From: Hyphomicrobiales bacterium | Lineage (GTDB): Bacteria > Pseudomonadota > Alphaproteobacteria > Rhizobiales > Rhodobiaceae | NCBI GenBank assembly: GCA_002869065.1 | Contig: PKTR01000001.1 | Location: 487,118 to 551,117 of the forward strand | Reading direction: 5' to 3' | DNA length: 64,000 nt | Part shown: positions 49,446 through 54,999 of the stretch, piece after piece | How positions within the stretch are numbered: the first letter of the stretch is position 1 | Layout: each line of letters starts with the position of its first letter | The notes under the pieces: generated by a model | Seen by the model: the letters and a program-made list of their open reading frames with translations, nothing else | The model's database searches: none | Told to the model about the DNA's origin: nothing | Translations under genes and position numbers: made by a program

Positions 49446-50135
49446 ATGGCGGACAAAAACACTCCGGTCCTCAAGCTCGACAACGTCACTCGTGCCTACT
49501 CCGAAGGGGCAGGGCGGCTCGACGTCCTGCGCGGCGGCAATTTGGTGATCGGGCCTGGCGAACTGGTGGCGCTTGTCGCCCCATCGGGCGCCGGCAAATC
49601 GACGCTGCTGCATATCGCCGGTCTACTCGAGCGGCCGGATGCCGGCGAGGTCTACATCAAGGGTATGGCATGCGGCCCGCTCGGTGACGCCGAGCGCACG
49701 CGCATCCGCCGCCTCGACATCGGCTTCGTCTATCAGTTCCATCATTTGTTACCCGAGTTCACGGCGGTCGAGAACGTTGCCGTGCCGCAGATGATCCGCG
49801 GCCTGAACCGGGCTGAGGCTGTCGATAGAGCACACCAGCTGCTCACCTATATGCGGCTTGGCGCACGCGCAGAACACCGTCCCTCGGAACTGTCGGGCGG
49901 CGAGCGCCAGCGTGTCGCGATCGCCCGCGCGGTTGCCAATGCACCGCGTCTGATCCTCGCAGACGAGCCGACCGGAAACCTCGACCCAAAGACGTCGTCC
50001 TACGTCTTTGACGCGCTCGAAGCGCTCGTGCGCGCGACGGGCCTGGCTGCCGTAATCGCGACCCACAACCTCGAACTCGCCTCGCGGATGGATCGCCGAA
50101 TCACGCTTCAGGACGGCCTCATCGCTGAGATGTAG
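49446..50135 (+). CDS. lolD: lipoprotein-releasing system ATP-binding protein
   Basis: A 229-residue ABC ATPase. Walker A is APSGAGKST, the signature is LSGGERQR, Walker B is [12 protein letters not shown], and the H-loop is ATHNLE. The start is the ATG at 49446, giving [18 protein letters not shown]; longer readings run back into lolC in another frame. It powers lipoprotein release with LolC. In related genomes dnaE usually follows directly; here 1.3 kb of accessory sequence intervenes. Confidence 0.96.
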
Positions 50136-50155: not shown

Positions 50156-50280
50156 CCGCCGTTGCCTTTCGGCTTGGTGCTAGCTTGAACCAGGCGTCAC
50201 GTCGCCTGTTGATTGGCGACAACGGATAGCGCGATAGCGTTCGCAAACTAGCAACGACGAGGTTCACGGCCTTCTCGTAT

Positions 50281-50330
50281 ACGGAGGGTACGAGCGTACG
50301 GAGGGTACGAGCGTACGGAGGGTACGAGCG
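50281..50330. repeat. 17-bp tandem repeat, three copies
   Basis: ACGGAGGGTACGAGCGT occurs three times head to tail (50281-50297, 50298-50314, 50315-50330, the last lacking its final T). The copies are otherwise identical, which suggests recent expansion. It marks the left side of the accessory region, between lolD and the toxin-antitoxin-like genes. No function known. Confidence 0.9.
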
Positions 50331-50453: not shown

Positions 50454-50630
50454 ATGACAAACCGGGAACTCGACGAGTTTCGCGACGCTCTAAGAATATT
50501 CGATGAGGAGCATGCGAACACACGGGCGAAGGCCCGTCATATTCTGCACCAAGAAGGCGTGGTGACCAGGGACGGGAAGCTGAAAAAGGAATTCGCCCCT
50601 AGAACCAAGAAGACCGCATTAGCATCGTAA
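50454..50630 (+). CDS. 58-residue protein, putative antitoxin
   Basis: A small, charged, mostly helical protein that I do not recognise; it starts MTNRELDEFRDALRIFDEEH and ends in a basic tail. The ATG follows GCGGAGAGTGCA. The stop codon is joined directly to the ATG of the next gene (TAAATG), so the two are translated together. A small helical protein just before an ADP-ribosyltransferase-like protein is the usual layout of an antitoxin, but there is no recognisable DNA-binding domain. Local base composition is more A+T-rich than the neighbouring core genes. Confidence 0.65.
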   Translation: MTNRELDEFRDALRIFDEEHANTRAKARHILHQEGVVTRDGKLKKEFAPRTKKTALAS

Positions 50631-51221
50631 ATGCACCACCTAACGACGACATTTGTACTCGGCTACCACGGATGCGACGAGTCTGTGGCTGAAAGCCTTA
50701 TAGCTGGGAAGAATTTCCAGAACAGCGCGAACGAGTACGATTGGTTGGGAGCAGGTGTATATTTTTGGGAGTCGAATCCACGACGGGGGCTCGAATTTGC
50801 CAATGAAGCCGCTAAAAGAAATGGTAGTAAGATTAAAAAGCCGGCCGTAATCGGAGCGGTGATCGATCTCGGATATTGCTTAGATCTGCTGTCTTCGGCT
50901 GGCGTGGACGCAGTCGCCGCAGCGTATGAAAGTTTTTTGAAACTTTGTGAAAAGAACGAAAATCGCCTGCCTCGAAATGAGGTGGGCGAGGACCTTTTGT
51001 TGCGTAAGCTGGATTGCGCGGTGATAAATCACTTGCACTATGTTCGTGAGATATCAGATCTCGCTCCGTTTGATGCAGTTCGAGGCGTTTTCTTGGAAGG
51101 CCAACGGATATACGAGAACTCCGGGTTCCGTTCGAAAACCCATATTCAATTGTGTGTACGCAATCACGAAAGCATCAAAGGTGTTTTTCGGGTTCCAGAT
51201 GAACATCTGAACGCGCGATAG
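50631..51221 (+). CDS. putative ADP-ribosyltransferase-fold protein, candidate toxin
   Basis: A 196-residue protein. Its N-terminal part, LGYHGCDES (residues 10-18) and YDWLGAGVYFWES (36-48), resembles the PARP/ART fold, in which His binds NAD and Tyr stacks on nicotinamide; Glu156 in FLEGQRIY could complete an H-Y-E triad (His13, Tyr44, Glu156). The end, about residues 163-188 (NSGFRSKTHIQLCVRNHESIKGVFRV), looks strongly conserved in the family I remember, which is annotated only as hypothetical. It follows the 58-residue gene without a gap. No signal peptide or membrane span is present, so a cytoplasmic target is expected. Codon use and composition suggest acquisition by transfer. Catalysis is inferred from motifs, not shown. 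Confidence 0.7.
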   Translation: MHHLTTTFVLGYHGCDESVAESLIAGKNFQNSANEYDWLGAGVYFWESNPRRGLEFANEAAKRNGSKIKKPAVIGAVIDLGYCLDLLSSAGVDAVAAAYESFLKLCEKNENRLPRNEVGEDLLLRKLDCAVINHLHYVREISDLAPFDAVRGVFLEGQRIYENSGFRSKTHIQLCVRNHESIKGVFRVPDEHLNAR

Positions 51222-51262
51222 GCGGTGACCCACAATCGCTTAGGTCCGTAGATCAGGAAGGC

Positions 51263-51291
51263 TTGACAAAAGAACAAAACAAGAACATAAT
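51263..51291 (+). promoter_or_regulatory. sigma-70 promoter overlapped by a LexA box
   Basis: TTGACA (51263-51268), a 17-base spacer and CATAAT (51286-51291) make a near-consensus promoter. Within it, GAAC-AAAACAA-GAAC (51272-51286) is a perfect match to the alphaproteobacterial LexA site (GTTC-N7-GTTC on the other strand). Bound LexA would cover the spacer and -10, so the downstream unit should be induced by DNA damage. Confidence 0.82.
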
Positions 51292-51323
51292 GCGGGAAAT
51301 CGCGAAGAGAGAGGATGTTAGTG

Positions 51324-51446
51324 ATGATCGTCAAACAGCTCCCCACGATGCGCGCCTGGGCTCAGGATATCGCCGCCGGCACCGCCCTCATTCTTTTCAT
51401 GGCCACCATCACGATGTGGGCCGATCTAATCGCCCGCTTCGGCTGA
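51324..51446 (+). CDS. 40-residue single-span membrane peptide, predicted SOS-induced
   Basis: A short frame about 33 bases downstream of the LexA-boxed -10 element, with GAGAGG as ribosome site. It starts MIVKQLPTMRAWAQDIAAG and has one hydrophobic segment (about residues 16-34) ending in a short WADLIARFG tail. The size, topology and LexA control recall SidA, the SOS-induced division inhibitor of Caulobacter, but I see no sequence match. dnaE begins 112 bases later without a terminator, so the promoter may also feed dnaE. Confidence 0.65.
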   Translation: MIVKQLPTMRAWAQDIAAGTALILFMATITMWADLIARFG

Positions 51447-51558
51447 CGGTTTATCCCAAGGAGATCGACGCTGGGCGGTTGCCGTGCCGCCCCGTTGTGA
51501 GGCACGGTGCGTGACGCGGACGAAAGCGCCGCATCCACCAGACGGGCAGGTCTTTTCG

Positions 51559-54500
51559 ATGAGCGGTGTCGGCTTCGTTCATTTGCGCGTGCATACCGCG
51601 TTCTCGCTTCTTGAAGGCGCGTTGCAGATGAAGCGCGTGCTCGACCTTGCCAAGAAGGACGAGCAGCCGGCGCTCGCAATCACCGATAGCGGCAATCTGT
51701 TCGGCGCACTGGAGTTCTCCGAAAAGGCCGCCGGCGCCGGCATCCAGCCGATCATCGGCTGCCAGTTGGCGGTTGCCTTCGACGACGAGCCGGAGCGCCG
51801 CGGCAACCGCATCGAGGAACTCCCGTCGCTGGTCCTGATCGCGGCCAATGAGGAGGGCTACCGCAATCTCGTGCGGCTGGTGTCGCGCTCCTTCCTCGAA
51901 ACCGATTCGAGCATGAAGGCGCACATGCCGATTGCCGAGGTGCAGAAGGCGGCGGGCGGCCTGATCGCGCTGACCGGTGGCCCGGGCGGCCCGGTCGACC
52001 GGATGCTCGCCGAGGGCTTCGCCGACATTGCCGCCAATCGGTTGACGCTTCTTTCGCAGACTTTTGGCGACCGGCTCTATGTCGAGCTGCAGCGTCACGG
52101 GCTCGAGAGCGAAAGGCGCGTCGAGCCGCTGCTGGTCGACCTGGCGTACGAGAACGAACTGCCGCTGGTCGCCACCAACGAGGTGTTCTTCCCGACCCGT
52201 GATGATTTCGAGGCCCACGACGCCCTGATCTGCATCGCGGAAAGCCGAATGGTCGCCGAGGAGGATCGGCGGCGCCTGACCGCGGAGCACTATTTCAAAT
52301 CGCGCAAGGAGATGATCGAGCTCTTCGAGGATCTCCCCGAAGCGGTTGAGAACACCGTCGAGATTGCCGAGCGTTGTTCGTTCCGGCCGCACACCAGCCG
52401 GCCGATCCTGCCGCGCTTCACCGGAACCGACGGCGAAGAGGGCGAGAAGGCGGAAGCCGAGGAACTGCGCCGTCAGGCGATTGCCGGGTTGGAGCGCCGC
52501 ATCGCAGCGCATGGCACCGCGCCCGGTGTCAGCGAACAGGACTATCGCGAGCGGCTCGACTTCGAACTCGGCGTCATCGAGCGCATGAAGTTCCCCGGCT
52601 ACTTCCTGATCGTTGCCGACTTCATCAAATGGGCAAAGCGTCACGACATTCCCGTCGGTCCGGGCCGCGGTTCGGGCGCCGGTTCACTGGTCGCTTATTC
52701 GCTCACCATCACCGACCTCGATCCGTTGCGCTTCAAGCTGCTGTTCGAACGTTTCCTCAATCCTGAACGCGTCTCGATGCCGGACTTCGACATCGACTTC
52801 TGCCAGGACCGCCGCGACGAGGTGATCCACTACGTTCAGGACAAATACGGACGTGATCAGGTCGCGCAGATCATCACGTTCGGTACACTGCAGGCCCGCG
52901 CCGTCATGCGCGACGTCGGCCGTGTGCTGCAGATGCCCTACGGCCAGGTCGACAAGCTTGCCAAGCTCGTGCCGTCGAACCCGGCCAACCCGACGCCGCT
53001 CGCAAAGGCGATCGAGGATGAGCCTCGCCTGCAGGAAGCCGCCCGCGAGGAAGAGATCGTCGAACGGCTGTTCTCGATCGCGACCCGCCTCGAAGGCCTG
53101 TTCCGTCATGCCTCGACCCACGCCGCCGGTATCGTTATTGGCGACCGGCCGCTGCAGGAGCTGGTGCCGCTCTATCGCGATCCGCGCTCCGACATGCCGG
53201 TCACCCAGTTCAACATGAAATGGGTCGAGCCGGCAGGATTGGTGAAATTCGACTTCCTCGGCCTGAAAACGCTGACGGTGCTTGAGACCGCGGTGAAGCT
53301 GATCCGGCGCAAGGGCATCGAGATCGATCTCTCGCAGGTCCCGCTTGACGATCCCGCGACCTACGAACTGCTCGCCCGTGGCGAAACGCTCGGCGTGTTC
53401 CAGCTTGAAAGTCAGGGCATGCGCAAGGCGCTTGCGGGCATGAAGCCTGACCGCTTCGAGGACATCATCGCCCTTGTCGCGCTCTACCGTCCGGGCCCGA
53501 TGGACAACATCCCGACCTACAACCGGCGCAAGCACGGGTTGGAGGAGCCGGAATACCCGCATCCGCGTCTCGAACCGATCCTGTCGGAGACTTACGGCGT
53601 CATCATCTACCAGGAACAGGTGATGCAGGTGGCCCAGGAGCTCTCCGGCTATTCGCTCGGTGAAGCCGACCTCCTGCGCCGCGCCATGGGCAAGAAGATC
53701 AAGGCGGAAATGGCCAAGCAGCGCGTGCGCTTCGTCGATGGCGCCGTCAAGGGCGGGGTGCCGAAGGCCCAGGCCGACACGATTTTCGATCTGCTGGCGA
53801 AATTCGCCGACTACGGCTTCAACAAATCGCACGCCGCGGCTTACGCGCTCGTCGCTTATCACACCGCCTATCTGAAGGCGAACCACCCCGTCGAGTTCCT
53901 CGCCGCCACCATGACCCTCGACATGGGCAACACCGACAAGCTGAACGATTTCCGCCGCGAGGCCATTCGCCTCGATATCGAGGTTCTGCCGCCGTCGGTG
54001 AACCGCTCCTATGTGCCGTTCGAAGTGGATGAGGGGCGTATCGTCTATTCGCTCGCCGCTTTGAAGGGCGTCGGGCAGGGGGTGGTCGAGCACCTTGTCG
54101 AGGTGAGAGGCGATCGGCCCTTCAAGGATGTCGGCGATTTCGCCGAGCGCATCAATCCGCGCCAGGTCAACAAGCGCACGCTGGAAAGCATCATCGCCGC
54201 CGGCGGATTCGATGAGCTGGAGCCGAACCGCACGCGGCTGACGGAAGGGCTCGACCGGGTGCTGGCTGAAGCCGCGCGCGCCCGGGAGTCCGAATCTCTT
54301 GGCCAGAACGAGTTGTTCGGCGGGCCCAGCAGCGGCGGCGGCATCGAGTTGCGCCTGCCGGAGGTCCAGGACTGGACGACGGAGGAAAAGCTGCGGCGGG
54401 AGATGAACGCGGTCGGCTTCTATCTGTCCGCCCATCCTCTCGACAGCTATCGGCCGATGTTCGAGAAATTGCGGGTCCAGCTTTGGAGCGACTTCTCGGA

Positions 54501-54999
54501 GTCGGTCAAGCGCGGCGCTGCCGTCGGCCGATTGATCGGAACGATCACCCAGCGACAGGAACGCCGAACCCGCACCGGCAACAAGATGGGTATCCTCAAC
54601 ATCTCCGACCCGTCGGGCCAGTACGAGGCGGTGGTCTTTTCCGAAACGCTCAACGAATACCGCGACCTGCTCGAACCGGGCCAATCGGTGATCCTGCTGG
54701 TTGGCGCCGAGGAGCGTGAAGAGACGATCAGCGTCCGTATCCAGTCGGTCGAACCGCTGGAGCGCGCCGCCAACGGCCTGCACAAGACGCTGCAGGTCTT
54801 CGTCAAGGATGCCGGCCCCGTCGAGAGCATCGCGCGGCAACTGAGGAAGGGCGGCGACGGCGATGTCAGCCTCGTCATGATGCTGGAGGACAGTCAGCGC
54901 GAGGTCGAGGTTAAGCTTGCGGGCGGCTATCAGGTTTCGCCGCCGGTGGCGAGCGCCTTGCGGGCGATCCCCGGCGTGGTCCAGGTCGAGCTGAGCTGA
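51559..54999 (+). CDS. dnaE: DNA polymerase III subunit alpha
   Basis: A 1146-residue replicative polymerase. The N-terminal PHP domain begins FVHLRVHTAFSLLEGAL. The polymerase core has GPGRGSGAGSLVAYSL and the catalytic aspartates in PDFDIDFCQDRRDEV (Asp409 to Asp413). HhH and OB domains follow, the latter near residues 990-1070 (GRLIGTITQRQERRTRTGNKMGILNI). Length matches DnaE1, the essential enzyme, not the shorter error-prone DnaE2. The ATG at 51559 is chosen because the PHP domain starts immediately; an earlier in-frame start would add 25 unrelated residues. Confidence 0.97.
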   Translation: MSGVGFVHLRVHTAFSLLEGALQMKRVLDLAKKDEQPALAITDSGNLFGALEFSEKAAGAGIQPIIGCQLAVAFDDEPERRGNRIEELPSLVLIAANEEGYRNLVRLVSRSFLETDSSMKAHMPIAEVQKAAGGLIALTGGPGGPVDRMLAEGFADIAANRLTLLSQTFGDRLYVELQRHGLESERRVEPLLVDLAYENELPLVATNEVFFPTRDDFEAHDALICIAESRMVAEEDRRRLTAEHYFKSRKEMIELFEDLPEAVENTVEIAERCSFRPHTSRPILPRFTGTDGEEGEKAEAEELRRQAIAGLERRIAAHGTAPGVSEQDYRERLDFELGVIERMKFPGYFLIVADFIKWAKRHDIPVGPGRGSGAGSLVAYSLTITDLDPLRFKLLFERFLNPERVSMPDFDIDFCQDRRDEVIHYVQDKYGRDQVAQIITFGTLQARAVMRDVGRVLQMPYGQVDKLAKLVPSNPANPTPLAKAIEDEPRLQEAAREEEIVERLFSIATRLEGLFRHASTHAAGIVIGDRPLQELVPLYRDPRSDMPVTQFNMKWVEPAGLVKFDFLGLKTLTVLETAVKLIRRKGIEIDLSQVPLDDPATYELLARGETLGVFQLESQGMRKALAGMKPDRFEDIIALVALYRPGPMDNIPTYNRRKHGLEEPEYPHPRLEPILSETYGVIIYQEQVMQVAQELSGYSLGEADLLRRAMGKKIKAEMAKQRVRFVDGAVKGGVPKAQADTIFDLLAKFADYGFNKSHAAAYALVAYHTAYLKANHPVEFLAATMTLDMGNTDKLNDFRREAIRLDIEVLPPSVNRSYVPFEVDEGRIVYSLAALKGVGQGVVEHLVEVRGDRPFKDVGDFAERINPRQVNKRTLESIIAAGGFDELEPNRTRLTEGLDRVLAEAARARESESLGQNELFGGPSSGGGIELRLPEVQDWTTEEKLRREMNAVGFYLSAHPLDSYRPMFEKLRVQLWSDFSESVKRGAAVGRLIGTITQRQERRTRTGNKMGILNISDPSGQYEAVVFSETLNEYRDLLEPGQSVILLVGAEEREETISVRIQSVEPLERAANGLHKTLQVFVKDAGPVESIARQLRKGGDGDVSLVMMLEDSQREVEVKLAGGYQVSPPVASALRAIPGVVQVELS

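Follow-up and report, generated by a model that had tools for sequence, protein, structure and literature searches.

A LexA-boxed, SidA-like peptide gene upstream of dnaE in a Rhodobiaceae genome, probably orthologous to sidA of Caulobacter

Small proteins that arrest division after DNA damage

SidA of Caulobacter crescentus is an inner-membrane peptide of 29 amino acids, controlled by LexA, that binds to FtsW (PMC4211646). It has been proposed, for the Caulobacter protein only, that SidA holds the FtsW/FtsI/FtsN complex in an inactive state (PMC4211646), and AlphaFold 3 models of low confidence place it on TM7 of FtsW (PMC13396833). Caulobacter produces a second small one-helix division inhibitor after DNA damage, DidA, which differs in its length (71 amino acids), its independence from the SOS response, and its partner, FtsN (PMC4211646). 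YneA of B. subtilis, SosA of S. aureus, ChiZ of M. tuberculosis, and SulA of E. coli are likewise damage-induced division inhibitors but are other proteins. YneA binds to FtsW (PMC13396833). It carries a LysM domain, however, and SulA targets FtsZ. TisB and DinQ of E. coli are also SOS-induced tiny hydrophobic peptides, but their locus and role differ; in toxins of this type the toxin mRNA is under antisense RNA control.

The Caulobacter LexA consensus is GTTCN7GTTC (PMC4211646). Searching named genomes with a PopZ sequence yielded 80 loci of Caulobacterales type, 20 of which were taken further. dnaE was found in 19 of these 20 Caulobacter and Phenylobacterium genomes, and it is preceded in all 19 by an ORF of 29-30 codons belonging to one family, with a LexA box ahead of it that is perfect in 11 cases and has one mismatch in the other 8. 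In C. vibrioides OR37 (L220), the 29-residue ORF is flanked by dnaE on one side and an IU_nuc_hydro gene on the other. The published locus tags fit this gene order: sidA is CCNA_02004 (PMC10769358), CCNA_02005 is a nucleoside hydrolase (PMC3667746), and CC1926 is dnaE (PMC1839093). By its length, its LexA control and box, its locus-tag neighbours, and the IU_nuc_hydro gene, this ORF is taken to be SidA.

Promoter and LexA box of the Rhodobiaceae locus

The window analysed here is a stretch of 64,000 nucleotides from a Hyphomicrobiales bacterium; all features of the locus are on its forward strand. A promoter-like sequence, TTGACA-N17-CATAAT, is found at 51263-51291. It matches 11 of 12 positions and is the sole one of its kind in the segment 50500-52000, where 0.5 would be expected. 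From 5' to 3', it is formed by a -35 hexamer (TTGACA, 51263..51268, motif scan), a perfect GAAC-N7-GAAC LexA box located by pattern match (GAACAAAACAAGAAC, 51272..51286), and a -10 hexamer (CATAAT, 51286..51291) that shares one base with the box. The near-consensus promoter with a perfect LexA site in its spacer, as described by the initial annotation, is therefore present. The box is exactly the majority box across 45 members of the family, and 32 of 45 relatives have TTGAC no more than 14 bp ahead of theirs (a count made by eye).

The rarity of the box was dropped as evidence, as the bare pattern occurs at chance frequency: three copies are present in the window against a mean of 2.40 in shuffles, and at least three were obtained in 43 of 100 shuffles. 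The case depends on conservation, as what exceeds chance is that relatives repeatedly have the box and a one-helix ORF together at this position.

Elsewhere in the genome, the minus-strand segment C1:563669-563857 codes for a LexA DNA-binding domain and has a box of its own 66 bp upstream. Genome-wide, there are 34 copies of GAAC-N7-GAACA as compared to 11 of the reversed pattern; other boxes are found before an SSB gene, near a gene with a ChlI domain (Pfam), and 27 nt before a putative imuA ORF, itself 2.8 kb ahead of a second dnaE-type gene. The ORFs read as imuA and parE had no Pfam match, so that these two names were given by eye. Elsewhere in the order, in a genome of small size, a perfect LexA box (L014, 2621-2635) precedes an ORF that by eye resembles the polymerase DinB.

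The region upstream of the promoter holds an ABC transporter ATPase gene, presumably lolD (lolD-like ORF, 49446..50135), which several relatives likewise keep ahead of the box. In three of them (L032, L034, L052), it ends only ~110 bp ahead of the box. In the window, lolD and the sidA-like gene are separated by two adjoining ORFs, of 58 (50454-50630) and 196 (50631-51221) amino acids. The longer one gives a weak PADLOC match to PD-T4-9_A (E 1.1e-4 over 44 residues) and the shorter a weaker match to AbiEi (E 0.014). For the 196-residue ORF, Pfam returned nothing at E <= 1, NCBIfam nothing over its cut-off, and the best PDB match had an E-value of 0.99; a defence or toxin reading of this ORF was set aside, the matches being all weak. 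Together, the pair (50454-51221) could be an insert of the toxin-antitoxin or defence type. To note, a 17-bp unit, TACGGAGGGTACGAGCG, is present as three perfect tandem copies (50280-50330) between lolD and this pair.

The 40-residue ORF

The first frame downstream of the promoter, at 51324-51446 (sidA-like ORF), encodes the 40-residue peptide MIVKQLPTMRAWAQDIAAGTALILFMATITMWADLIARFG. A ribosome-binding site read from the sequence (AGAGAGAGG, 51305..51314) includes the purine-rich AGAGAGG, ~9 nt ahead of the ATG at 51324. There are alternative in-frame starts: the ATG at 51315 would yield a peptide of 43 residues, while relatives align with the last 32 residues only, from 51348. A single helix is predicted for residues 9-39, with a mean pLDDT of 89.8. 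The earlier description of a one-span ORF of 40 residues with a good ribosome site is confirmed by the ORF and the sequence. Neither Pfam, searched with one peptide, nor NCBIfam, searched with eight, has a model matching it, and the earlier view that a tiny LexA-boxed membrane gene is easily missed by gene finders is supported.

Comparison of related genomes indicates that the ORF is under selection at the protein level and is presumably translated. Computed on exact ORFs, pN/pS is 0.12 among eight sequences of one genus, 0.07 among five of another genus, and 0.21 among ten that include those five. Two sequence pairs give 0.18, from just six changes, and 0.04. The changes between related genomes fall mostly at third codon positions, and identity is 0.78-0.94 within the ORF as compared to 0.29-0.70 in the 90 bp past its stop.

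The length of the peptide, its one hydrophobic helix, and its LexA control would fit equally well a membrane-depolarising toxin of the TisB/DinQ type, which would slow metabolism instead of inhibiting the divisome; DinQ is an SOS-regulated toxic peptide with a single transmembrane segment (PMC3567139). Such a toxin is nevertheless improbable here. The peptide sits at the sidA locus and not at that of a toxin, and three of its residues, A17, F25, and W32, are invariant across 23 aligned members; together with conserved charged residues before the helix, this A-F-W set suggests a specific partner.

Conservation in the order and in the class

A peptide search of 61 genomes (the window's own and 60 relatives) gave weak matches. 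In seven loci of other genomes (L002, L003, L005, L007, L012, L019, L022), a frame of 30-47 codons lies within ~90 bp past a perfect box. A profile of eight peptides (A1) was then searched against 297 genomes of the order and matched in 117 of them at E <= 0.01. This figure was not used as a member count, as some matches fall inside long frames (e.g. 646 amino acids) and are likely false. Among the 30 best loci examined, a perfect box precedes the ORF in 28 (not in L046 and L049) and dnaE lies downstream in 29, the exception being L041, in which 1.5 kb downstream was covered.

A second test in the order was anchored on dnaE and not on the peptide. dnaE was located in 120 genomes and the upstream DNA of 60 was sampled, namely those with the most similar dnaE; 14 better-ranked genomes already found by the peptide searches were skipped, so that the sample errs on the conservative side. 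A perfect box is present within 500 bp upstream of dnaE in 35 of the 60, against 0.88 expected from shuffles, in forward orientation in 34 and in reverse only in one. After 32 of the 34 forward boxes (not in L300 and L308) comes a short ORF that encodes a hydrophobic span, although one of these ORFs, in L266, is unlike the family and doubtful. Such an ORF also follows a one-mismatch box in L258 and L298, and a box more than 500 bp away in L262. Twenty-six of the 60 genomes lack a forward perfect box in the 500 bp before dnaE.

The arrangement of boxes varies in the order. In the sampled genomes of families f30 and f5, the 500 bp preceding dnaE hold no box (L261, L280, L283, L287, L291, L276, L284, L293, L314), possibly through loss or movement of the gene; in L261 and L262, a box lies farther upstream than 500 bp. 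In several genomes (L035-L039, L050-L058), the sidA-like box is accompanied by another, oppositely oriented LexA box, 31 bp before it or ~18 bp after it, and four loci (L263, L265, L266, L292) carry a pair of direct boxes at a spacing of 21-27 bp. These additional boxes suggest stronger or divergent LexA control.

Of 193 genomes of the class, 189 yielded a dnaE gene, and the 60 most similar dnaE genes were used, leaving out the window's own. A box on either strand lies within 500 bp before dnaE in 17 of the 60 (0.58 expected). Fourteen of the 60 have a forward box, one of them (L082) from the window's own order, and all 14 boxes are followed by a one-helix ORF whose start is 44-59 bp from the box. 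Applied at random places in regions devoid of a forward box, the same criterion gave an ORF in 155 of 1440 trials. The initial annotation had proposed to check whether the frame and the GAAC-N7-GAAC box are conserved together upstream of dnaE, and would have been refuted by their lack of conservation; in silico, relatives do exhibit both (32/34 in the order, 14/14 in the class). Of the 60 class genomes, 46 lack a forward perfect box in the 500 bp before dnaE; given this number and the 26 such genomes of the order, the arrangement is widespread yet far from universal. A class-wide profile search matched in only 6 of 387 genomes, including the window's own; four (the window's own, G036, G024, G305) have the box and dnaE, and two do not. 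Sequence search alone thus fails outside the order.

The box-peptide-dnaE unit appears in more than one order of the class, several in all, and it is this extent that is new. No report of SidA relatives in Rhizobiales was recognised in the literature searched, and a prior one is possible.

Relationship to SidA

The window peptide and SidA are both tiny one-helix membrane peptides with a LexA box in their promoter, located just upstream of dnaE and first in line. They differ in length, 40 residues (conserved core of 32) against 29, and their direct sequence similarity is below detection. Comparison by hhalign of a Rhizobiales-type profile (A2) with the Caulobacter set gave an E-value of 0.03, but 14 of 100 permutations were as good; a direct sequence match to SidA is consequently not claimed.

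Sequences from other orders appear to bridge the two peptide types. The other-order set matches the Rhizobiales-type profile with 96.2% probability, none of 100 permutations keeping the hydropathy pattern being as good, and the Caulobacter profile with 75.3%, again with none of 100 as good. When the letters were left unedited, near-duplicates and one odd member were kept, and the member from the window's own order was dropped, these probabilities became 95.7% and 27.2%, with none of 100 permutations as good for each. The bridge is clear on the Rhizobiales side and weak on the Caulobacter side, and the homology claim is carried by the shared address and promoter, to which the sequences lend support.

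Alternatively, the resemblance to SidA might have arisen by convergence, another small membrane protein having come under the same LexA promoter in this order; the lack of a direct sequence match with the Caulobacter peptide speaks for it. Such convergence is unlikely, as the locus and the promoter design are common to Caulobacterales and other orders, and the bridging sequences add to this. Orthology is preferred on the grounds of the same locus before dnaE in Caulobacter and Phenylobacterium and of these bridging sequences: the ORF is quite probably the ortholog of Caulobacter sidA, which encodes the FtsW-binding SOS division inhibitor. The earlier proposal of a SidA-like, LexA-boxed tiny membrane protein is hence upheld by the frame and box conserved in relatives. 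Its suggestion that the peptide would be an unrelated counterpart of SidA is not, given the same LexA-boxed locus before dnaE in 19 of 19 genomes and the bridging sequences.

By orthology and by the position of the box, a mechanism may be proposed. In undamaged cells, LexA bound between the -35 and the -10 would block transcription. Upon DNA damage, RecA-driven cleavage of LexA would free the promoter, and the single-helix inner-membrane peptide would be made. It would then bind to FtsW and keep FtsW/FtsI/FtsN inactive, halting septum synthesis during repair. An FtsW-family gene is present in the genome (PF01098 match). The sites of SidA suppressors in Caulobacter FtsW, A31, F145, and A246, correspond to G, F, and S in this FtsW, so that one of the three is kept.

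The downstream dnaE gene

dnaE, encoding the DNA polymerase III alpha subunit (51559..54999; TIGR00594 match, 1235 bits), starts at the ATG 51559 according to alignment with relatives, 112 nt beyond the sidA-like stop. The spacer (51447..51558) has no terminator-like site, and its predicted RNA fold is no more stable than that of shuffles (z-score +1.32). No terminator-like site was seen in 50500-52000, which bears out the earlier statement that none precedes dnaE. In relatives, such sites between the ORF and dnaE are at chance level, with 0 of 14 in the class (0.4 expected) and 1 of 32 in the order (0.6 expected).

The absence of terminator-like sites above chance level, and the presence of dnaE downstream in nearly all top loci (29/30), raise the question of whether the ORF is a leader peptide, or the promoter an SOS promoter, really serving the regulation of dnaE. 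As the sole role of the locus, this is very unlikely: selection acts on the peptide sequence at the protein level, the window spacer is devoid of unusual structure, the distance from the ORF to dnaE varies from 26 to 307 nt, and the Caulobacter peptide is itself known to act. Regulation of dnaE may nonetheless come in addition to the role of the peptide, and SOS control of dnaE via the same LexA box is possible. The main text of a paper on the Caulobacter SOS response does not mention dnaE (PMC12700426).

Implications for the Alphaproteobacteria

Genes of ~30 codons that escape sequence search can be found by combining synteny with a promoter motif. To our knowledge, there is no clear account of post-damage division arrest in most Alphaproteobacteria outside Caulobacter, such as rhizobia and methylobacteria, and a LexA-boxed peptide conserved at a constant genomic position is a ready candidate for this function. 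More tentatively, the sidA checkpoint might be ancestral to much of the Alphaproteobacteria, with fast-evolving and mostly unnamed FtsW inhibitors of ~32 amino acids encoded before dnaE under LexA in many orders, and transcription from that promoter continuing into dnaE. If true, a single LexA box would stop division and raise the replicative polymerase together.
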